IMG/VR virus record: IMGVR_UViG_3300049927_000087
Coordinates: 1 to 40,204 of that record
DNA from: a virus
Length of the DNA: 40,204 nucleotides
Direction: 5' to 3' (one strand)
The notes beneath the pieces were generated by a model, which was not told the origin of the DNA, searched no databases, and was given only the letters and a program-made list of their open reading frames with translations. The position numbers and the translations under genes were made by a program. Of the stretch, positions 1,560 to 26,768 are shown piece by piece. Position 1 is the first letter of the stretch. Each line of letters begins with the position of its first letter.

Positions 1560-1924
1560 GGCCTGTACACCTGTGATTGCCATTGCATCGTCGGCCGCTT
1601 GTGCGCGCCCTTGTTGAGCGACGGCGCGTAGCCGTCCGGCTTGATGATGAAGTCGCGCCGGCACTTGACTGCTACCGCGCCCCATGCCCTCGGATCAGGT
1701 GCCGCCGGCAGCCCGCGGGCTTCGGCATAGTCGCGCACCGTTTCGAGCGCAAATCGCTGATGGTGCCGGGCGAATGTGAGCAGATGCGCCCGAGCGAGCA
1801 AAATCCAGCCGCGGACTTCGCGGTCGGCATGGGCCGCCGCCCGCGCTATGCCCTCGTCACGCTCCGCAGCGCCCGGCGACCTATCCACGATGCTCCGGCC
1901 GGTTTGAACGATGCCAGCGGTCAT
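1556..1924 (-). CDS. Conserved phage protein, 122 aa
   Basis: Sits directly after the recombinase with an ATGA overlap. The middle and C-terminal parts (ALETVRDYAEARGLPAAPDP, RAWGAV, ending SQVYRP) resemble a small phage family often found beside recombination and replication genes. The GLP.P.D.RAWG segment followed by a basic stretch could be a winged helix. No catalytic motif is visible. Function unknown. Confidence 0.7.
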   Translation of the reverse strand: MTAGIVQTGRSIVDRSPGAAERDEGIARAAAHADREVRGWILLARAHLLTFARHHQRFALETVRDYAEARGLPAAPDPRAWGAVAVKCRRDFIIKPDGYAPSLNKGAHKRPTMQWQSQVYRP

Positions 1925-2943
1925 TTTGCGCCCTCCAGCTCGATCCGGCGGAGCTTGGCGGCGTCGCGGAGCTGCGCGAAGTCCGGCGGCCCGAGCTTGT
2001 CGCCAAGGGACAGCGCCAAGTCGACCGCATCGGCGTTGATCGACTGCTCGACCATCGTTAGCAGCTCGGCCAGCGTCGGCGCTGGCGGCGCCGGCTGCCG
2101 GCTCCCCTTCGCGCGCTCGGCGACGCGGGCACGGGCGGCGTCAAAGTCCGGCCCTTTTTGCGGTGCTGGCTCCGATTTTTCGACAGTCGCTTCGACCGCT
2201 GTTTTTTCCGGCCCCGCCTGCGCATCGGGAAGTTTCTCGCCCGCCGGTTTGTCCGTGAGCTGCGCGGGCTCGCCGTCGCCGATAGTGCGCTCGCTCACAA
2301 TCTCCGCGTTGATCGTTTCGAGCTTGCCGCCCGTCGGGCGAGCTGCGCGATCGCCCTCGATGATCCGCTCGGCTTCATCCTCGTCATAGATGCCCGCGAA
2401 TCCGAACGCCATGCGCGCACACTGGATCAGCGCTTTGTGCCGCAACATGCGCGACGGATGCGATTTCCACGGACCAGACGAATCGCGAAAGCACTCCGCC
2501 AAAAACTCGCGCGCCTTGGTCGGGTGCTCGCGATCGCGCCGGTAGATAACGGCCTCGATCCATTGCGGCGAGCCCTTATGCTTTTCGCCTTCACTCGGCG
2601 GCCCATATTCGAATTCGACGCCGTTATACGTTTCCTGTTCATTGATAATGCGCAGCCAGCCGTCGACGGACACGACGGGCACGATCGCACCGCCCTGCCC
2701 CTCGAATGCGAAAATCTCGCGGGTAAACGGATTGAGCTTGTGCTGATCGGCAACGACCATGACGGCCGCGATCTGCGCGTTGCTCGCTTCGCGATTGTTC
2801 GGCAGCTTGAACACCGTCGCTTTTAGCGTTTTCCAAAGCGCATCCTGATCGATGCCAAAGCGTTGCGCGAGCCGCGCGACGAGCAACCGCTGTTCACCTT
2901 GTACCATCGCCGTCGCTTCGACGGGTTTCGCTGCGTCATTCAT
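1921..2943 (-). CDS. bet: Phage recombination protein Bet / RecT-type single-strand annealing protein, 340 aa
   Basis: Residues about 20-200 match the Bet/RecT annealing family: DALWKTLKATVF, a region with QIAAVMVVADQHKLNPFTRE, VVSVDGWLRIIN, WIEAVIYRRD and the conserved PSRMLRHKALIQCARMAFGF. The last 140 residues are a low-complexity Ala/Pro/Glu tail ending in a short helical region. Such proteins anneal complementary strands after a partner exonuclease has resected DNA. The YqaJ/RecE-like exonuclease is immediately upstream (15-bp gap), giving a complete two-gene recombination module. Confidence 0.92.
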   Translation of the reverse strand: MNDAAKPVEATAMVQGEQRLLVARLAQRFGIDQDALWKTLKATVFKLPNNREASNAQIAAVMVVADQHKLNPFTREIFAFEGQGGAIVPVVSVDGWLRIINEQETYNGVEFEYGPPSEGEKHKGSPQWIEAVIYRRDREHPTKAREFLAECFRDSSGPWKSHPSRMLRHKALIQCARMAFGFAGIYDEDEAERIIEGDRAARPTGGKLETINAEIVSERTIGDGEPAQLTDKPAGEKLPDAQAGPEKTAVEATVEKSEPAPQKGPDFDAARARVAERAKGSRQPAPPAPTLAELLTMVEQSINADAVDLALSLGDKLGPPDFAQLRDAAKLRRIELEGAK

Positions 2944-2958
2944 TGTCGGCCCTCCGGG

Positions 2959-3813
2959 TTAAGCGTCAAAGCGCGTCGCCCAAGTGGGCAGCACGAGCGT
3001 CGTGATTCGTTCATCGTATCCGATCCATTTCCCGGCAGCGAGCGCGTCGCGGTAGCGCGCATACGCTTCGTCCATCAGCCGCTTGCCGGCCATGATCGCG
3101 GAGCGGTCCAAGTCGTACACCGCAACCGCGTGCGGCTCCTCCGACTCGACGCAAATCATCGCGAAAAACTCCGGCGTCTCGTTGAACACGGCTTCATGCG
3201 CATTGTGGTATTGCGCGCCCTGCAAGTGATATTGGAAATTCGCGGCCGACTTGCGGAATTCCTGCGGCGATGCATCCTTCGTCGTTTTAACATCTAGAAT
3301 GCCGCCGAAGTTGATCGCGTCGAGCCGCGCCTTGCACGGTACATCGTATTGTCCGTCGCGCCAGAACAGGGAGACTTCGGTATAGGCGCCGCGCAACAGG
3401 CGACGAGCTGCCGGGCTGGCGCGGATCGCTGCGATGCACTTCGCCGCCGCCGCGTGCTCGGCCGGCGCGAGCACGATCTTGCCGGCGTGCTCGGCGCAGA
3501 ACGCGGCAAACTCCGCCTTGCCGGCGTTGCTGCGCTTGTTGAACGTCGGCGACAGCACGACGCGCGACACGTAGCGGTCAGGCTCCAGCACGCCGCAGTG
3601 TACGGCCGTGCCGAATTCCATCGTCTCCGTTGGCTCGCTCGGCTGATCGCGCATCAGCTTGTAATGCATCGGCGAGCGGAGAATTTTCTTCGCTCCGCTC
3701 GCCGATATTGCTTCGATTGCATGGTACGTCGTCTCCGGCATCCGATAATAAACGCCGTCGTAAATCGGCGGGTCATCGATCGGTCCGACAACTTCGGCGA
3801 TCGCTTCGCTCAT
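2959..3813 (-). CDS. YqaJ/RecE-like PD-(D/E)XK exonuclease, 284 aa
   Basis: The PD-(D/E)XK core is visible: H72 in FGTAVHCGVL, E146 in TEVSLFW, D165 in CKARLDAI, D174-V-K176 in GILDVKTT, and the QYHLQGAQY helix near 195-203. This is the layout of RecE/lambda-exonuclease-like enzymes (DUF3799/YqaJ type) that degrade one strand of duplex ends. It lies just before bet and should supply the 3' overhangs for it. The ATG at 3811-3813 was chosen because it overlaps the small membrane gene as ATGA; the upstream 76-residue extension is Arg-rich and non-protein-like. Confidence 0.9.
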   Translation of the reverse strand: MSEAIAEVVGPIDDPPIYDGVYYRMPETTYHAIEAISASGAKKILRSPMHYKLMRDQPSEPTETMEFGTAVHCGVLEPDRYVSRVVLSPTFNKRSNAGKAEFAAFCAEHAGKIVLAPAEHAAAAKCIAAIRASPAARRLLRGAYTEVSLFWRDGQYDVPCKARLDAINFGGILDVKTTKDASPQEFRKSAANFQYHLQGAQYHNAHEAVFNETPEFFAMICVESEEPHAVAVYDLDRSAIMAGKRLMDEAYARYRDALAAGKWIGYDERITTLVLPTWATRFDA

Positions 3814-3983
3814 TTCGTCGTCGCGATCGCGACCATGACGGCGACGAAACCGAGCAGCATTCCAATAGCGAACGCGATTATCGGCGGCGGGTGCAACGTC
3901 GCTGATACAGCGACGGACACTGCGGCGGCGCCGATGCCCGCGATAATCGTGCGTGCGCCGAGTCGCGCCATGTACGATTTCAT
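3810..3983 (-). CDS. Small two-helix membrane protein, 57 aa
   Basis: Reading 3983 to 3810 gives a 57-residue protein with a basic start (MKSYMARLGARTIIAG), a first hydrophobic helix at about 13-30, an HPPP turn, and a second at about 35-54 (IIAFAIGMLLGFVAVMVAIA). Start and stop both form ATGA overlaps with neighbouring genes, which is strong evidence for a real gene. It may be a membrane-directed early factor such as an exclusion or host-takeover peptide; this is inference. Confidence 0.75.
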   Translation of the reverse strand: MKSYMARLGARTIIAGIGAAAVSVAVSATLHPPPIIAFAIGMLLGFVAVMVAIATTK

Positions 3984-4210
3984 TCTGGCTCCGCGCTCGC
4001 GTCGTCGACCGGGAATTGCGCGCCGTGTTTGATAAGTGCATCCTGATCCGCGATCGGCGCTTCGTAAATCTTTTTCGTGTAGAAACGGATCGCCGCCGCT
4101 TCGCTCGCCGCGCGAATCAGTGCAACCGCGATGCCGTTTTCGAACAGCACGCGAATCGGGGTCTTGCGCGCCGGTTTTGCTTCCGGCGTTGCTGCCGTTG
4201 TGTTTGCCAC
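3980..4210 (-). CDS. Hypothetical protein, 76 aa (GTG start)
   Basis: GTG at 4208-4210 is preceded by GGAGGG six to seven bases upstream, far better than the ATG at 4294. The product has an Ala/Thr/Pro-rich N-terminus and a compact domain (IRVLFENGIAVALIRAAS ... YTKKIYEAPIADQDALIKHG). No membrane segment. I do not recognise it. The stop overlaps the next start as ATGA. Confidence 0.65.
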   Translation of the reverse strand: MANTTAATPEAKPARKTPIRVLFENGIAVALIRAASEAAAIRFYTKKIYEAPIADQDALIKHGAQFPVDDASAEPE

Positions 4211-9018: not shown

Positions 9019-10605
9019 CTAGGCAAGGTCCAAGGCGCGCTTACCTGTCGCCTTGGCGGCCGTGCTGACGGCTTCGGAGCGGGCCGCCGGGCGCGCACGT
9101 CCTACACTCCAATCGCGCAGCCGCTTGACCTTTTCCGCTGCTGTCTTAGTCAACGGCACGACGGTCCCGGCAGCGGCGAGCAGGTCTTTTGTGCGAATCT
9201 CGCGCGCGCCATCGTTAAACGCTTCGAACAATGCGTCCGGCACAATGGCGGCGATTTCGCTGCCAGTGAAACCCTCGCACGCCGCGCTGATCGCGTCCAG
9301 GTCGACCGGAATGCTGCCGCGCCCGTGCGCCTTCATTGCCGCCTTGACGACGGCCGCGCGCTCGTCTGCATTCGGCACGTCGACAAACCATAATTCATCG
9401 AAGCGCCCCTTGCGCAACAACTCGGGCGGCAAGCCTTCTACATCGTTCGCTGTCGCGACGACGAACGCTTCGCCCTGGCGCTCCTGCATCCAGCTCAGAA
9501 TAGAGCCGAGCGCATCAGACGAAACGCCGCCATCAGCCGAGCCGGATGTTGCACCTTGCAACGCTTTTTCGATTTCATCGAACCAGACAACGCAGCGGCC
9601 GATCGCTTCTATAACCTTGAACGCCTTGCGCAGATTCGACTCAGACTCGCCGACAAACTTCGACTTGAGCGCGCCCAGGTCGACGCGCAACAGCGGCACG
9701 CCCCAAGCGGTCGCGATCGCTTTGGCGGTCAAGCTCTTGCCGCAGCCCGGCACGCCGACGAGCAACACGCCACGCGGCGCCGGCAAGCCGTATTCCCGGG
9801 CCTTAGTGCTGTACGCCGTCCGGCGGGCGCCGAGCCATGCTTTCAGGTTTTCGAGCCCGCCAACGGCTTCTAAACCGCCGGGGATCGGGTCGTACCATTC
9901 GAGCACGCGCTCGCGAGCGATGACGCGCTTTTTCTCGCCCGCCACGATGGCCGGGTCAATCTTGCGCGACTGCACGAGCGATCGCGCATAGCAACTCGCC
10001 GCTTCCTCGCCCGACAGGCCGATTGCCGCATCGATCGCCGCGTCACGCGCGCCGTTCGGCGCTGCGGTCTTTTGCATGTCGTCGGGCAATCCAGCGATCG
10101 CGCCGTCAAGTATGGCGGCGATTTCCGCGCGGTCAGGCATCGGCCATTCCAACACGGTCGTATGTCCGGCCAGCTCGGGCGGCACGTCGCCGCTTGGGCT
10201 AATGACGATGATCGCTTGCGCGCTCGCCCTGGCGGCCGTTGGCAAGCTCCGCGCAAGGTTGCGGAGCTGGCGCAGCGTGACGGCGCCGGATGAACCGCCG
10301 AGCCACGCGGGCAAGTCGCGCATGATCCAGACGCCGCGCTCGTCACCGTTCTGCGACTTGCCGCCGATCAACGTCAGCATGGCGGCCGGATCGTTCAGGT
10401 CGCTACCGTAGCGTGCGCCGTTGATATCGGCCGCGCCTTGCGCAACGTCCCATGTCCGCGCGACGTAGCCCGCCGATGCGGCCGCCTCGAACAGCGAACG
10501 CTCGACGCGCGCTTCTTCGCGCGTCACTATCCACAAAAGCGAATTGCGAGCGCGGAGCAGTGCGGATACATCGGCTGCGGCGCGTATTCCGTTGTTGCTT
10601 TCCAT
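9019..10605 (-). CDS. Ycf46-like AAA+ ATPase, 528 aa
   Basis: The whole length follows the Ycf46 architecture: a degenerate N-terminal AAA domain (RNSLLWIVTREEARVE ... LRQLRNLARSLP ... IIVISPSG..VPPEL ... VLEWPMPDRAEI) and an active C-terminal AAA domain with Walker A GVPGCGKS (284-291), Walker B VVWFDEIEK (339-347), sensor-1 ATAND (384-388) and LRKGRFDE (397-404). Such ATPases remodel protein complexes; the substrate in phages is unknown. AAGGA precedes the start. The 113-aa and 264-aa genes upstream probably form one module with it. Confidence 0.88.
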   Translation of the reverse strand: MESNNGIRAAADVSALLRARNSLLWIVTREEARVERSLFEAAASAGYVARTWDVAQGAADINGARYGSDLNDPAAMLTLIGGKSQNGDERGVWIMRDLPAWLGGSSGAVTLRQLRNLARSLPTAARASAQAIIVISPSGDVPPELAGHTTVLEWPMPDRAEIAAILDGAIAGLPDDMQKTAAPNGARDAAIDAAIGLSGEEAASCYARSLVQSRKIDPAIVAGEKKRVIARERVLEWYDPIPGGLEAVGGLENLKAWLGARRTAYSTKAREYGLPAPRGVLLVGVPGCGKSLTAKAIATAWGVPLLRVDLGALKSKFVGESESNLRKAFKVIEAIGRCVVWFDEIEKALQGATSGSADGGVSSDALGSILSWMQERQGEAFVVATANDVEGLPPELLRKGRFDELWFVDVPNADERAAVVKAAMKAHGRGSIPVDLDAISAACEGFTGSEIAAIVPDALFEAFNDGAREIRTKDLLAAAGTVVPLTKTAAEKVKRLRDWSVGRARPAARSEAVSTAAKATGKRALDLA

Positions 10606-22020: not shown

Positions 22021-23244
22021 GTGGCGAATCAAATCCTCACTCCGGTCATGATAACGAACGAAGCCGTTATCGTGCTGGAGAATCAATGCAACGGCGTGCG
22101 CTTTTTCGACTCGTCCTACAGCGATCAATTCGCAAAAGACGGCGCGAAAATCGGCGCAGTGCTGAACATTCGCAAGCCCGCTCGGTACAAGGGGCGGCAG
22201 GGCGCGACGCTTCAAGTCGAGGATCAAACCGAGACGATGGTCCCGCTCGTGCTGACGACGCAATTCGGCGTCGACGTGCAGTTTACGTCGCAAGACCTGA
22301 CGCTATCGTTGCAGGACTTTTCGAAGCGTGTGCTCATGCCGCAAATGGCAGTGATCCGAAATCGTGTTGACTTCGATTGCTGCCTGCAAGCGCAGAACAC
22401 GCCGAATCAGGTTGGCACGCCGGGCACTCCGCCGGCAACGCTGGCCGTGCTATTGGCCGTGAAGCAAAAGTTGCTCGAAATGGGCGCGCCCGACGACGGT
22501 CAGTTGTATCAACTGCTCGGCCCGGCGGCGAACACGTCGCTGGTCGGTGGTCTGTCGACGCTGTTCAACGCGCAAGCCAGGATATCTGAGCAGTACGAGG
22601 ACGGCGTAATCGCGAATGCGGCGGGGCTGAACATCGCCCTGGACCAAAACACGATGACGCAAGTTGTCGGACCGCTCGGCGGCTCGCCTGTTATCAACGG
22701 CGCGGGGCAAGGGCAGGCGACGGGTTGGGCGTATTCGCAAAATCTGCTCGTCAACGGCTGGACCGCAGCGGCAGCGGCGCGACTGAATGCCGGCGATATC
22801 TTCACCATCGTCGGCGTGTTTGCAGTCAACCCGCAGAATCGCCAAAGCACTGGCTCGCTGCAACAGTTTGTCGTGCAAGCGAACGTGTCGAGCGATGCAA
22901 CCGGCGCAAGCGTTATTCCGATCGTTCCCGCTATCATCTTCGGCGGTCAATTCCAGAACGTGACGAACTCGCCAACGTCGGGCAATGCAATCACTGTTGC
23001 CGGTGCAGCGAATGCGAATCTGCCGCAAAATCTGGCGTTCCACAAGTCGGCGTTCACGATCGCGTTTGCCGATCTGATTCTGCCGAAGGGTGTCGATATG
23101 GCAGAGCGCAAGGTGTACAAGAAAGTCAGCTTGCGAATCGTGCGTGCATTCGATATCAACAACGACCGATTCCCATCGCGGACCGACGTGCTCTATGGCA
23201 TCAAGGCGGTCTACCCCGAGCTGGCTGTTCGACTCACGAACTGA
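22021..23244 (+). CDS. Major capsid protein, P22 coat-like, 407 aa (GTG start)
   Basis: MANQILTPVMITNEAVIVLENQ, shown in part, and CNGVRFFDSSYSDQFAKDGA, IGAVLNIRKPARYKG and TTQFGVDVQFTSQDLTLSLQ match the P22 gp5 coat family. The C-terminal TDVLYGIKAVYPELAVRL closes the HK97-like fold. Length 407 against 430 in P22. GTG at 22021 follows AAGGAAAAAAGGC at good spacing. P22 coat mutants depend on GroEL/GroES for folding, which is relevant to the co-chaperonins encoded just downstream. Confidence 0.92.
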   Translation: MANQILTPVMITNEAVIVLENQCNGVRFFDSSYSDQFAKDGAKIGAVLNIRKPARYKGRQGATLQVEDQTETMVPLVLTTQFGVDVQFTSQDLTLSLQDFSKRVLMPQMAVIRNRVDFDCCLQAQNTPNQVGTPGTPPATLAVLLAVKQKLLEMGAPDDGQLYQLLGPAANTSLVGGLSTLFNAQARISEQYEDGVIANAAGLNIALDQNTMTQVVGPLGGSPVINGAGQGQATGWAYSQNLLVNGWTAAAAARLNAGDIFTIVGVFAVNPQNRQSTGSLQQFVVQANVSSDATGASVIPIVPAIIFGGQFQNVTNSPTSGNAITVAGAANANLPQNLAFHKSAFTIAFADLILPKGVDMAERKVYKKVSLRIVRAFDINNDRFPSRTDVLYGIKAVYPELAVRLTN

Positions 23245-23306: not shown

Positions 23307-23774
23307 GTGGGACTCGAAAAACTTTCGAAAATGTCGGACGAGGATTACAAGCGTCTGACGCCGCAAGACTTGCTCATGTACAACCGCGAGCTGCCGGAAA
23401 TGGATTACAGTCGGCAGTACGCTCACATTCCATACCCGAAAGCGAAGTATCAGCTTCGCGATATGCCGGGCGGCGGCCAACGGCTCGTCTCAATCGAAGT
23501 GGCGAGCGCAGAGATCGAAGCGAAGCTCGTCGGCGATTGGCGCGACTCCCCGAGCGCATGGGGCGTCGTCACGCATCCCGAGGCTGATCCTGTCTCGCTG
23601 GAAAGCGGATTTTCGTTCGACGTGCCGCAGCCGATCGAGCCACAAGTCGCGCATACGCCGCAACCGGGCGATGCGGAGCCCGAGCCGGAGCCGGACGACA
23701 AAGCTCCGATGCGCGAGCCCGGCAACGATGACGAGGGCAGCGGTGCTACCGCTCGGCCCGCGCGTCGCCGTTAG
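23307..23774 (+). CDS. Hypothetical neck-region protein, 155 aa (GTG start)
   Basis: GTG at 23307 follows CGGAGCTAAAAA. The N-terminal 95 residues contain MSDEDYKRLTPQDLLMYNRE and YPKAKYQLRDMPGGGQRLVS; the C-terminus is a Pro/Glu/Asp-rich tail ending in RPARRR, likely disordered. The gene overlaps the single-domain GroES gene by 32 bp. Function unknown; possibly a head-completion accessory. Confidence 0.65.
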   Translation: MGLEKLSKMSDEDYKRLTPQDLLMYNRELPEMDYSRQYAHIPYPKAKYQLRDMPGGGQRLVSIEVASAEIEAKLVGDWRDSPSAWGVVTHPEADPVSLESGFSFDVPQPIEPQVAHTPQPGDAEPEPEPDDKAPMREPGNDDEGSGATARPARRR

Positions 23775-24018
23775 GCGCGGCGTCGTTGAGCGCACGCTGC
23801 CAAGTGGCATTGTTCTACCGGCACCGGACACGCGAGATTCGTTTTGCGGTGAAGTAGTCGCCGTCGGCGGTCCGCATCGCGTGCGCAACAAGCGCCTGCC
23901 GCTCGAAGTCAGAGCGGGGCAGCGCATCGTCTATTCGTCTCGCGTCGACACTTACCAAGTCGGCGACGATGACGTTGATATCGTCGACGAAAATTCCATC
24001 ATCGGGGTGCTCGAATGA
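23743..24018 (+). CDS. GroES-like co-chaperonin, single domain, 91 aa
   Basis: The Cpn10 fold is clear: an N-terminal strand LGPRVAVRRGVV, a mobile-loop segment TLPSGIVLPAPD carrying the GIVL hydrophobic tripeptide that binds GroEL, GEVVAVGG (36-43), AGQRIVY (58-64) and a C-terminal SIIGVLE. Host GroES has the same strand order and length (97). The GTG at 23743 follows GAGGG and gives the usual Cpn10 length; ATG at 23728 is an alternative. T4 gp31 is the known precedent of a phage co-chaperonin that helps capsid folding. Confidence 0.85.
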   Translation: MLPLGPRVAVRRGVVERTLPSGIVLPAPDTRDSFCGEVVAVGGPHRVRNKRLPLEVRAGQRIVYSSRVDTYQVGDDDVDIVDENSIIGVLE

Positions 24019-24728
24019 CGACAGCGACGACAACCGCCAGCGAAATAATAACCGACGCGTTCGGTTTTGCCGGCATCGGCGATCAGTACAACCCCCTAGA
24101 TGGCACGACGATCGCAGGCGCATTGCGCTCGCTGAACGATCTGATCGATAGCATGTCGACGGAGGAAATGACAATTTTCGGCTACACCGAAGGAACTATT
24201 GCTTTGACCGTCGGCGTGTCGCCGATCCTCGTCGGCCCGGGGCAAGGGCTCGGCTTGCGTCCGTCGTCGGTGCAGTCCGTAGCGATTGTCGACTCGGGCA
24301 ATGTCACGCATCCGGTCGCGATCATCGGCACGCAGCAATACGCCGATATCACCTATAAGCCGGCGCCGGGGCGGCCGGAAATGCTCTACAACGACGGCAA
24401 CGCGCCTGTCGCGAATTGGTATTTGTGGCCGCTGCCGGCGATGGTCGGCGATGTGTTGCACGCGTGGTATTGGGCGCAGATACCGCAGTTTAACGCTGTC
24501 AACAATCTGCTCGTCTCGCCGCCTGGATACTCGCTGTTCCTGAAAACAGCGCTCGGCGCTCTGCTCGCGGCGATGAACGGGCGCGAGCTGACGCCGGCCA
24601 ACGCGAGGATAGCGCGCAACGCCCGCAACAATGCGCGGCGCCTATCTAATCAGCCAAAGGTGCTTTCGCTTGACGTGCCGATGCCAAGCGCGCCTTGGTT
24701 CAACATATACACCGGAGGGCCGTTGTGA
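24015..24728 (+). CDS. Head-tail connector, P22 gp4-like, 237 aa
   Basis: Begins TASEIITDAFGFAGIGDQYN, followed by an all-helical core (SLNDLIDSMSTEEMTIFGYT) and WYLWPLPAMVGDVLHAWYWA, the layout of P22 gp4-type tail-accessory proteins (166 aa in P22, longer in relatives). It should bind the portal ring and the gp10-like hub to close the filled head. ATGA and GTGA overlaps tie it to both flanking GroES-like genes. Confidence 0.75.
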   Translation: MTTATTTASEIITDAFGFAGIGDQYNPLDGTTIAGALRSLNDLIDSMSTEEMTIFGYTEGTIALTVGVSPILVGPGQGLGLRPSSVQSVAIVDSGNVTHPVAIIGTQQYADITYKPAPGRPEMLYNDGNAPVANWYLWPLPAMVGDVLHAWYWAQIPQFNAVNNLLVSPPGYSLFLKTALGALLAAMNGRELTPANARIARNARNNARRLSNQPKVLSLDVPMPSAPWFNIYTGGPL

Positions 24729-25336
24729 GTCTGCCATTTCGTCCGATTCAAGACATTATCGTTTGCCGCAAGGATCATACGGAGCGATTGAGCGCCGCCG
24801 GCTTGCTCATTCCGCACGTCAACGATCCGGAGCGCGAGGAGTCAGACGAGCGCGATGTTGCCGAAGTGCTCGGCGTTGGCGACGGCCGCTTGCTCGCGAG
24901 CGGAATGCGGCGGCCCATGAGTGTTCGCGTCGGCGATCGCATCATCTTCGGACGCAACAAGGGGCAGTCGATCCGGCTCGATGCGCTCGACTATTGCGTG
25001 CTGCGCGAGGAGCACGTCATAGGCCGGATCAACGGGCACGGCTTCGAACCGCTGAACGGCGTGATCGCGGCCGAGCCGATCCACGAGGAGCGCACGTTAG
25101 ACTCAGGCGTGATCGTGCCGGAGTCGGCCGACGAGCGTGACGAAGCAATCGTCGTCGCGGTCGGGCCGGGCGATATCGGCGATGACGGCGAGCTTGAGCC
25201 GACAAGCATTCGCGTCGGCGATCGCATCCTGTACAACGTGCGCATGGGCGAGCCGTTCCGCCACGGCGAGCGCGAGCTTGTCGCGCTGCGCGAAAAGCAC
25301 GTCGTATGTATCGTTGAGCGAGCCGACGATGCCTAG
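24725..25336 (+). CDS. Tandem GroES-domain co-chaperonin, 203 aa
   Basis: Two complete Cpn10 domains in one chain. Domain 1 (about 5-102): FRPIQDIIVCRKD, mobile-loop AGLLIP (25-30), AEVLGVGDGRLLASG, VGDRIIFGR, YCVLREEHVIGRI. Domain 2 (about 108-198): FEPLNGVIAAEP, mobile-loop SGVIVP (127-132), AIVVAVGPGDIGDDG, VGDRILYN, LVALREKHVVCIVE. Both mobile loops keep a hydrophobic tripeptide. Its fusion resembles plastid Cpn20 but should be independent. GTG start with GGAGGG six bases upstream, overlapping the connector stop. Confidence 0.88.
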   Translation: MSLPFRPIQDIIVCRKDHTERLSAAGLLIPHVNDPEREESDERDVAEVLGVGDGRLLASGMRRPMSVRVGDRIIFGRNKGQSIRLDALDYCVLREEHVIGRINGHGFEPLNGVIAAEPIHEERTLDSGVIVPESADERDEAIVVAVGPGDIGDDGELEPTSIRVGDRILYNVRMGEPFRHGERELVALREKHVVCIVERADDA

Positions 25337-26768
25337 CGGCGGCTCAATCGTTCCGCTGTTCGGCACCGGATTTTTCCGCAAGTCGGCGAACGTCGTCGCG
25401 CAGACGCTTATCAATATGTATCGCGAACCGCAACCGCCGACGCCGGACGGTACGCCGATGGCGTTCTACAGCACCGTTGGCAAGACGCTATTCTCGGCGA
25501 TCGGAATTCTCCCATCGCGCGGCGCGCGGCAAGTCGGTTCGTTCTTTTTCTATACCGTCCACGGCAACACGCTTTATTCAGTCAATGCCGTGGGCACGTA
25601 CACCGCGATCGGAACGCTGTTGTCGTCGAACGGCCGCGTCGACATGACGGATAACGGCCGGCAATTGCTGATTGTCGACGGGCTCGCGGGCTACGTGCTC
25701 ACGCTGGCGACGAACATTCTCGCGCAGATAATCGACCCGGATTTTCCGGCCAATCCAACGACGTGCACGACGCTCGGCGGCTATGGCATCGTCGACAACA
25801 ATGCCGCGCGCATCGGTCAATTCAACTGGAGTGCGCAGTACGACTATACCGCATGGGACGGTCTGGACTTTGCCAACGCCGAAGGCAATCCCGATCCGCT
25901 CGTGCGTGTCTTCGCCAACGCTGGCGACCTTTATCTATTCGGAACGGTGTCGACGGAAGTGTGGGCGCTGTCGGGCGATACAGCGATATTCCGGCGCGTC
26001 GGCGGCGCCGCGATGGAGTGGGGGCTTGCCGCGGTCTGGTCGCTCGACAAATTCTCCGATACGTCGCTCGCCTTTCTCGGAAAAAACAAGCTTGGGCAAG
26101 TGCAGCCCATTCAGATCGTCGGGTACACGACGAAGATTCTCGTCGACCTTTCCGTGCCGAGCGGACCCGACGTTGCGAATGACATAAACAGTCGCGTTCC
26201 AGCGAGCGCGACGGGGTATGCATTTGTCCGCGACGCGCACACGTTCTATCAACTCAATTATCCCGATCGATCGTATCTGTACGATGCGCTCTCGAATTCA
26301 TGGTCGCTCGTCATGACAGGCGTCGTCGCTCCGGCGCGCGACAGCGGAGAGATTCGCGTCGAAATGTTCGGCGTGCCTTACGTCAGCGATTACGCAACCG
26401 GGAATTGGTACGCGCAATCGGACGGCGTGTTCACCGACAACGGCAATCCGATCCTACGCGAAATCACGACGCGACATTCGATCGCGAATATGGATCGGTT
26501 TGCGGTCAATGAGCTGTTTATCGAAGTCGAGCCCGGCGTCGGTCTGGCGACCGGGCAGGGCAGCGATCCACAGGCGATGCTGTCGTGGTCGAAGGACGGC
26601 GGCCAGACATTCGGCGTCGAAGTGTGGCAACCGATCGGCAAGATGGGGCAGTATCAGAATCGCGCCGTGTGGCGCAATCTCGGCATCGCTCGCGATTGGG
26701 TTTTTCGGCTACGATTTACTGATCCATGTACTTTCGTGCTCATCAATGCGGCAATGAGGGTTTCGTGA
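25329..26768 (+). CDS. Packaged DNA stabilisation / tail hub protein, P22 gp10-like, 479 aa
   Basis: Begins MPSGGSIVPLFGTGFFRK, then LINMYREPQPPTPDGTPMAF and a beta-propeller-like body with FNWSAQYDYTAWDGLDFANA, GDLYLFGTVSTEVWALSG, and DKFSDTSLAFLGKNKLGQVQ. This is the P22 gp10 family (472 aa) that binds gp4 and forms the tail hub. ATG at 25329 sits inside the end of the tandem GroES gene (8-bp overlap). Confidence 0.85.
   Translation: MPSGGSIVPLFGTGFFRKSANVVAQTLINMYREPQPPTPDGTPMAFYSTVGKTLFSAIGILPSRGARQVGSFFFYTVHGNTLYSVNAVGTYTAIGTLLSSNGRVDMTDNGRQLLIVDGLAGYVLTLATNILAQIIDPDFPANPTTCTTLGGYGIVDNNAARIGQFNWSAQYDYTAWDGLDFANAEGNPDPLVRVFANAGDLYLFGTVSTEVWALSGDTAIFRRVGGAAMEWGLAAVWSLDKFSDTSLAFLGKNKLGQVQPIQIVGYTTKILVDLSVPSGPDVANDINSRVPASATGYAFVRDAHTFYQLNYPDRSYLYDALSNSWSLVMTGVVAPARDSGEIRVEMFGVPYVSDYATGNWYAQSDGVFTDNGNPILREITTRHSIANMDRFAVNELFIEVEPGVGLATGQGSDPQAMLSWSKDGGQTFGVEVWQPIGKMGQYQNRAVWRNLGIARDWVFRLRFTDPCTFVLINAAMRVS

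Follow-up and report, generated by a model that had tools for sequence, protein, structure and literature searches.

The stretch of DNA analyzed here (the window) is IMG/VR record IMGVR_UViG_3300049927_000087, which is complete at 40,204 bases and classed as linear. The record is that of a P22-like phage: it encodes a P22 portal (PF16510, 4e-152 with Pfam), a scaffold, a terminase large subunit (PHROG), and a terminase small subunit. Portal, coat, and terminase establish that the two co-chaperonin genes of the window are phage-encoded. We refer to these genes as S, for a stand-alone GroES, and D, for a chain with two GroES domains in tandem. Both lie in the stretch between the coat gene and the gene for the head-closure protein Hc3 (Table 1).

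Table 1. Genes and domains around the co-chaperonin genes of the window.
Feature	Positions	Strand	Evidence
P22-like coat protein	22021..23244	+	PF11651, E=5.6e-28; phrog_283 major head protein, 1.6e-68; 45% to coat of Xanthomonas phage PBR31
155-aa gene, function unassigned	23307..23774	+	similarly placed genes in relatives L011, L078, L079, L117
S, stand-alone GroES (Cpn10), 91 aa, tripeptide IVL	23743..24018	+	PF00166, 41 bits; six-frame match; model resembles GroES structures; conserved start, upstream GAGGG
gp4-like head-tail connector, between S and D	24015..24728	+	phrog_12985, 9e-22; distant tblastn similarity
D, tandem GroES, 203 aa, two Cpn10 domains	24725..25336	+	PF00166, two stretches, 104.9 bits; fold match 7ekq
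D N-terminal Cpn10 domain, tripeptide LLI, long mobile loop	24737..25027	+	profile and alignment
D C-terminal Cpn10 domain, tripeptide VIV	25046..25315	+	profile and alignment
gp10-like head-closure protein (Hc3)	25329..26768	+	phrog_578, 1.2e-73; start taken from sequence

The GTG start of the coat gene was set by comparison with relatives. The GTG at 23743 is most likely the start of S, because its counterparts in relatives have their first residue at the same point (MLPLGPR or MVPLGPR). For the gp4-like gene no Pfam family was detected, and its assignment follows from gene order and from distant tblastn similarity to genes annotated as tail adaptor or tail tubular protein A; its position between S and D is as described in the initial annotation. 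The 155-aa gene has no match in Pfam or PHROG. From this gene onward, neighboring genes overlap, by 32 nucleotides (155-aa gene and S), 4 nucleotides (S and the gp4-like gene), 4 nucleotides (the gp4-like gene and D), and 8 nucleotides (the D stop and Hc3), which suggests translational coupling.

A search of the 40,204-base record found no encoded GroEL. The left part carries minus-strand genes, among them an AAA+ ATPase (9022-10605; PF00004, 9e-29, with AAA_lid_3), a recombination pair of a RecT-like annealing protein and an adjoining DUF3799 PDDEXK nuclease (1924-4041), and a gene with a weak match, under the Pfam cut-off, to the restriction alleviation protein Lar (634-1539; PF14354, 8.7e-05). 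Contig scans for a lead to the host were empty in one case and in the other returned a distant Bradyrhizobium gp10-like gene with no GroES nearby.

All three domains are members of the Cpn10/GroES family. S scores 41.0 bits (E=2e-10) against the Pfam Cpn10 model PF00166, whose curated cut-off is 21.1 bits, and D scores 104.9 bits (E=2.4e-30) over two stretches, with 54.9 bits (E ∼9e-15) for either half alone. PHROG 3188 (“co-chaperonin GroES”) matches each of the three domains, and the NCBIfam GroES models concur. To phrog_13932 (200 aa, “co-chaperonin GroES”) D matches over only 36 positions of that family (E=0.046). A six-frame search of the record yielded exactly three Cpn10 domains, the one of S and the two of D, so that the three domains that had been proposed within 1.6 kb are present as open reading frames, all above the Pfam threshold. 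The two domains of D are joined head to tail in one chain by a linker of ∼5 residues, an architecture of the Cpn20 type.

Each domain possesses a hydrophobic mobile-loop tripeptide, as the initial annotation had read from the sequence. IVL of S, LLI of the D N-terminal domain, and VIV of the D C-terminal domain align with the GIVL position of Escherichia coli GroES and have conserved equivalents in relatives. The loop of the D N-terminal domain is long, and its model falls below a pLDDT of 50 at residues 32-42. The aromatic residue that is typical of GroES after the GDxxxF strand (FGKYAGT) is replaced in all three domain types. The replacement motifs are each conserved separately: FGRNKGQ in the N-terminal domain and NxRM(G/A)EPF in the C-terminal domain (each in seven of eight lineages, with L079 as the exception for both), and YSSRVD in S. 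We take the segment after the GDxxxF strand to face the GroEL cavity in GroES, and the aromatic position altered in S and D presumably lines it. On this basis, the three domain types may line the GroEL chamber differently.

Template-free AlphaFold2 models, built from shallow alignments of 8 and 9 sequences, are of moderate confidence for both D (mean pLDDT 79.8, pTM 0.75) and S (mean pLDDT 77.6, pTM 0.68). In Foldseek both models match GroES structures with a probability of 1.00, in line with the fold expected for them. In the PDB, D comes closest to the Chlamydomonas tandem chains in 7EKQ, ahead of single GroES chains. D aligns with 7ekq_R (Cpn20) over 202 columns (TM 0.66/0.69) and with 7ekq_Q (Cpn23) over 211 columns, the TM scores ranging from 0.65 to 0.69. 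This match over the full length bears out the likeness to plastid Cpn20 that had been noted from the sequence, and it suggests that the two predicted domains of D are placed like neighbors in a co-chaperonin ring.

We gathered relatives by scanning viral contigs with D, the gp4-like protein, the portal, S, and alignments thereof, and checked them record by record with the Pfam Cpn10 model. The order S, gp4-like gene, D, Hc3 recurs in 17 further IMG/VR records from about eight lineages. S and D co-occur in all 17 of these other records that span the region, and records with part of the set end at a contig edge (e.g. L010 and L012). Across lineages, D shows 86, 77, 59, 59, 56, 56, and 44% identity to the D of the window. 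All three Cpn10 domains are under purifying selection: dN/dS is ∼0.1-0.25 in most pairs, as estimated by a simple counting method, with dS close to or exceeding 1 for several of them. For the window and its two nearest lineages, the ratios are 0.15 and 0.16 for S, 0.15 and 0.13 for D, 0.09-0.11 for the N-terminal half of D, 0.14-0.21 for its C-terminal half, and 0.17-0.26 for gp4. The recurrence of the arrangement and the purifying selection rule out chance or misassembly as its source.

The relatives present five states of Cpn10 content. No Cpn10 is found in five complete phages of the same coat family (MW202483, KP792623, JQ801337, OK041467, and MW202655) or in the partial record JF412294. 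One GroES near terminase and portal is carried by PBR31 (orf017) and DSL-LC05, annotated by the depositors as co-chaperonin GroES. One GroES directly downstream of gp4 is found in L099 and L102, and likewise in L100, which is ended by the contig edge. Two single GroES genes flank gp4 in L072 and L117. The window and the 17 records combine a single with a tandem gene. The order of these states is undated, and loss could explain some of them.

In domain trees the upstream S forms one clade (100/99), and the N- and C-terminal halves of D fall together with the single GroES that L072 and L117 encode downstream (92/90 with every row included, 94/96 without long branches). Together with the simpler relatives, this grouping makes a duplication within the downstream gene the likeliest origin of the tandem. 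A fusion of S with a second GroES, in which the C-terminal half would derive from S, is less likely, though not rejected by the two trees (p-AU 0.196 and 0.20). The two halves of D share 35% identity in the window and 24-35% across eight lineages, and no DNA tandem repeat was found, which rules out a recent tandem duplication in this contig.

The upstream single GroES differs in some relatives. In L072 (6855-7136) and L117 (1712-1978) it has a divergent, shortened mobile loop with YIWV or VLIL instead of GIVL, and, judged by this loop, its ability to dock on GroEL may be fading in these lineages, whose downstream gene is a single one. In L019 (677-940) and L032 (5558-5821) it is four residues short at the roof hairpin; Arabidopsis plastid single-domain Cpn10s have also been reported without the roof loop (PMC4242682).

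The reading that we favor, with a probability of roughly 0.55, is that S and D form a mixed seven-domain lid on host GroEL that serves a phage morphogenetic client. S and D would be made as GroES-type co-chaperonins from the late morphogenesis operon and would co-assemble into one lid of seven Cpn10 domains, likeliest from three D and one S, arranged like the chloroplast Cpn11/Cpn20/Cpn23 ring. The lid would dock through its mobile loops on the GroEL of the host, which is the expected partner since the record encodes none. Once docked, it would alter the folding chamber for one or more morphogenetic proteins, most plausibly from the same operon (gp4-like, Hc3/gp10-like, or coat).

A mixed lid is favored because D is always accompanied by S in the tandem lineages and because plastids provide a precedent. 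In 7EKQ, a heterotetramer of CPN11, CPN20, and CPN23 (PMC8889267), two Cpn20, one Cpn23, and one single-domain chain add up to seven domains. Plastid Cpn10 and Cpn20 combine into working hetero-oligomers with seven domains (PMC5780408), and Arabidopsis Cpn10(1) is functional only together with Cpn20 (PMC4242682). The suggestion of a mixed ring in the initial annotation thus has a close parallel, and the composition of the phage ring would follow by analogy. The accompanying argument, that a seven-fold ring cannot be built from two-domain chains only, holds for a strict seven-domain ring. It does not hold for working lids in general, because Cpn20 tetramers and concatemers of six to eight domains work with GroEL (PMC5780408, PMC3542282). 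Ribosome-binding sites offer weak evidence in the direction expected for an excess of D: its Shine-Dalgarno sequence (GGAGGG) is strong, and D has a stronger site than S in six of the seven tandem lineages scored. Against this, in lineage L078 a site is recognizable for S but not for D.

The precedents for lids without seven domains also lend weight to another reading, in which S and D are both co-chaperonins that form separate rings, S a homo-heptamer and D an eight-domain tetramer or a six-domain trimer, for different clients or infection stages. Cpn20 from Arabidopsis and from Plasmodium is mainly a tetramer and serves GroEL in the absence of Cpn10 (PMC3542282), so that D may be able to do without S. 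The S clade marks S and D as old and distinct lineages, and L099 and L102 use one single-domain GroES alone. It also tells against the mixed lid that these two records, and L072 and L117 with their two single genes, manage without a tandem chain, which the function, whatever it is, therefore does not require. We nevertheless regard separate rings as rather unlikely, since S always accompanies D in records with the tandem and plastids with both types favor mixed seven-domain rings (PMC5780408). Less probable again is a role for S, D, or both in the virion neck, as structural or assembly components that have put the Cpn10 fold to a use independent of GroEL. Such a role would suit two overlapping genes among those for coat, gp4-like protein, and Hc3, and the divergence of the upstream S domain in L072 and L117, but mobile-loop features and Cpn10 scores of the N-terminal, C-terminal, and S domains are kept across eight lineages. 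Moreover, cultured relatives with the same neck genes manage without these proteins at this place, some of them with a single GroES elsewhere.

Two further readings retain a lid and change its purpose. As nonproductive GroEL lids, S and D would shut down or redirect host folding without folding a phage client, a role to which their distance from host GroES (24-38% identity to the Paraburkholderia protein) and the altered residues at the aromatic position could point. We consider this improbable, because the genes belong to the late operon, at a stage in which the phage itself depends on folding, and because the studied phage precedent, T4 gp31, assists the coat protein of its phage in folding (PMC9576892). 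Least probable of all is that the ring targets another host machine, e.g. the ClpP protease, which it would cap and block in the manner of the chloroplast Cpn11/20/23 ring. The closest full-length match, 7ekq, is indeed a co-chaperonin ring bound to ClpP, and the title of the cited preprint states that the chloroplast ring inhibits ClpP proteolysis. However, the likeness concerns the lid itself and predicts nothing on ClpP, whereas the tripeptides suit docking on GroEL and ordinary GroES genes occur in related phages.

Within the favored reading of a mixed lid on GroEL, coat folding in the manner of gp31 is an unproven reason for the presence of S and D. The initial annotation had stated that P22 coat folding is known to need GroEL/ES. 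This is too strong, because the published dependence concerns temperature-sensitive coat mutants (PMC2267774) and because record-wide searches found no Cpn10 in the five complete phages with the same coat family (coat identity 32-42%). The coat fold itself thus does not demand a phage GroES. A single GroES was found elsewhere in the genome in 4 of 10 cultured relatives by record-wide search, and inspection by eye of the small genes between coat and gp4 in cultured relatives revealed no hidden GroES. Single GroES genes near terminase and portal occur in the P22-like phages MT119766.1 (6891-7214), OR003940.1 (29730-29978), MW202674.1 (11032-11316), and MW202520.1 (about 7-270). In deposited P22-like phages a single GroES is a recurrent, little-discussed group trait, and some copies are very divergent.

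The initial annotation knew of no well-described tandem GroES in a phage, and our searches agree. A tblastn search with D against 50,697 deposited phage records gave, within the sensitivity of tblastn, single-domain GroES only, at one place in each record matched; two-piece matches that had been joined lay on the same stretch of <300 bases. No description of a tandem GroES in a phage was found in the open-access literature searched. Two-piece matches on bacterial plasmids were rejected as tandems, because both halves of D hit one single-domain gene, as checked in S. meliloti. Until its discovery in Plasmodium, cpn20 had been described only from algal and plant chloroplasts, according to the report of that discovery (PMC3542282, 2013).

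A mixed lid that this phage lineage had evolved independently would be a Cpn10/Cpn20-like system without precedent outside plastids, and living intermediates (none, one, two singles around gp4, single plus double) would display its build-up. For plastid Cpn20 it has been debated how chains of two domains can fit a GroEL ring of seven-fold symmetry. Small phages would add a second case of apparently separate origin, and their single-domain intermediates at the equivalent site would make it a compact comparative test of the mixed 3+1 ring as a selected state. It also raises the question why some P22-like phages own a GroES and others of the same coat family do not, and so bears on the purpose of phage co-chaperonins. 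A fuller proposal, which we hold tentatively and at somewhat below even odds, is that this phage lineage independently evolved a chloroplast-type hetero-oligomer of three tandem chains and one single chain, with its three different and separately conserved domain types in fixed seats, an uneven chamber lining, and a dedicated morphogenetic client.

Compared with known systems, the head-to-tail Cpn10 pair beside a single-domain Cpn10 resembles chloroplast Cpn20/Cpn23 with Cpn10/Cpn11 (Chlamydomonas and Arabidopsis; 7EKQ) and apicoplast Cpn20. Chain identity between D and Cpn20/Cpn23 is nevertheless only ∼21-22%, and in a tree without plastid rows D is nested among phage GroES domains (the L072/L117 singles). 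Because its two halves group with phage single GroES from the same place, the architecture of D most likely evolved separately from plastid Cpn20. With bacterial GroES, S and D share the Cpn10 fold and profile and the hydrophobic mobile-loop tripeptide. They differ from it by their low sequence identity, the longer mobile loop of the N-terminal domain, the loss of the aromatic residue after GDxxxF, and the absence of an adjoining groEL. Like T4 gp31 (fold match to 1g31 with E 1e-3 for D and 0.049 for S), they are phage-encoded co-chaperonins, but gp31 is one single-domain gene, whereas here three domains are distributed over two genes inside a P22-like neck operon. Phage-encoded GroES is also shared with the cultured P22-like podoviruses PBR31, DSL-LC05, ctn9Y15, and cta1H496, the former two of which have the coat family of the window as well, and with the jumbo phages BcepSaruman, XaC1, and CBB. 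In all of these, GroES has one domain and is encoded near terminase and portal or elsewhere, and not as a pair around gp4 as in the window.
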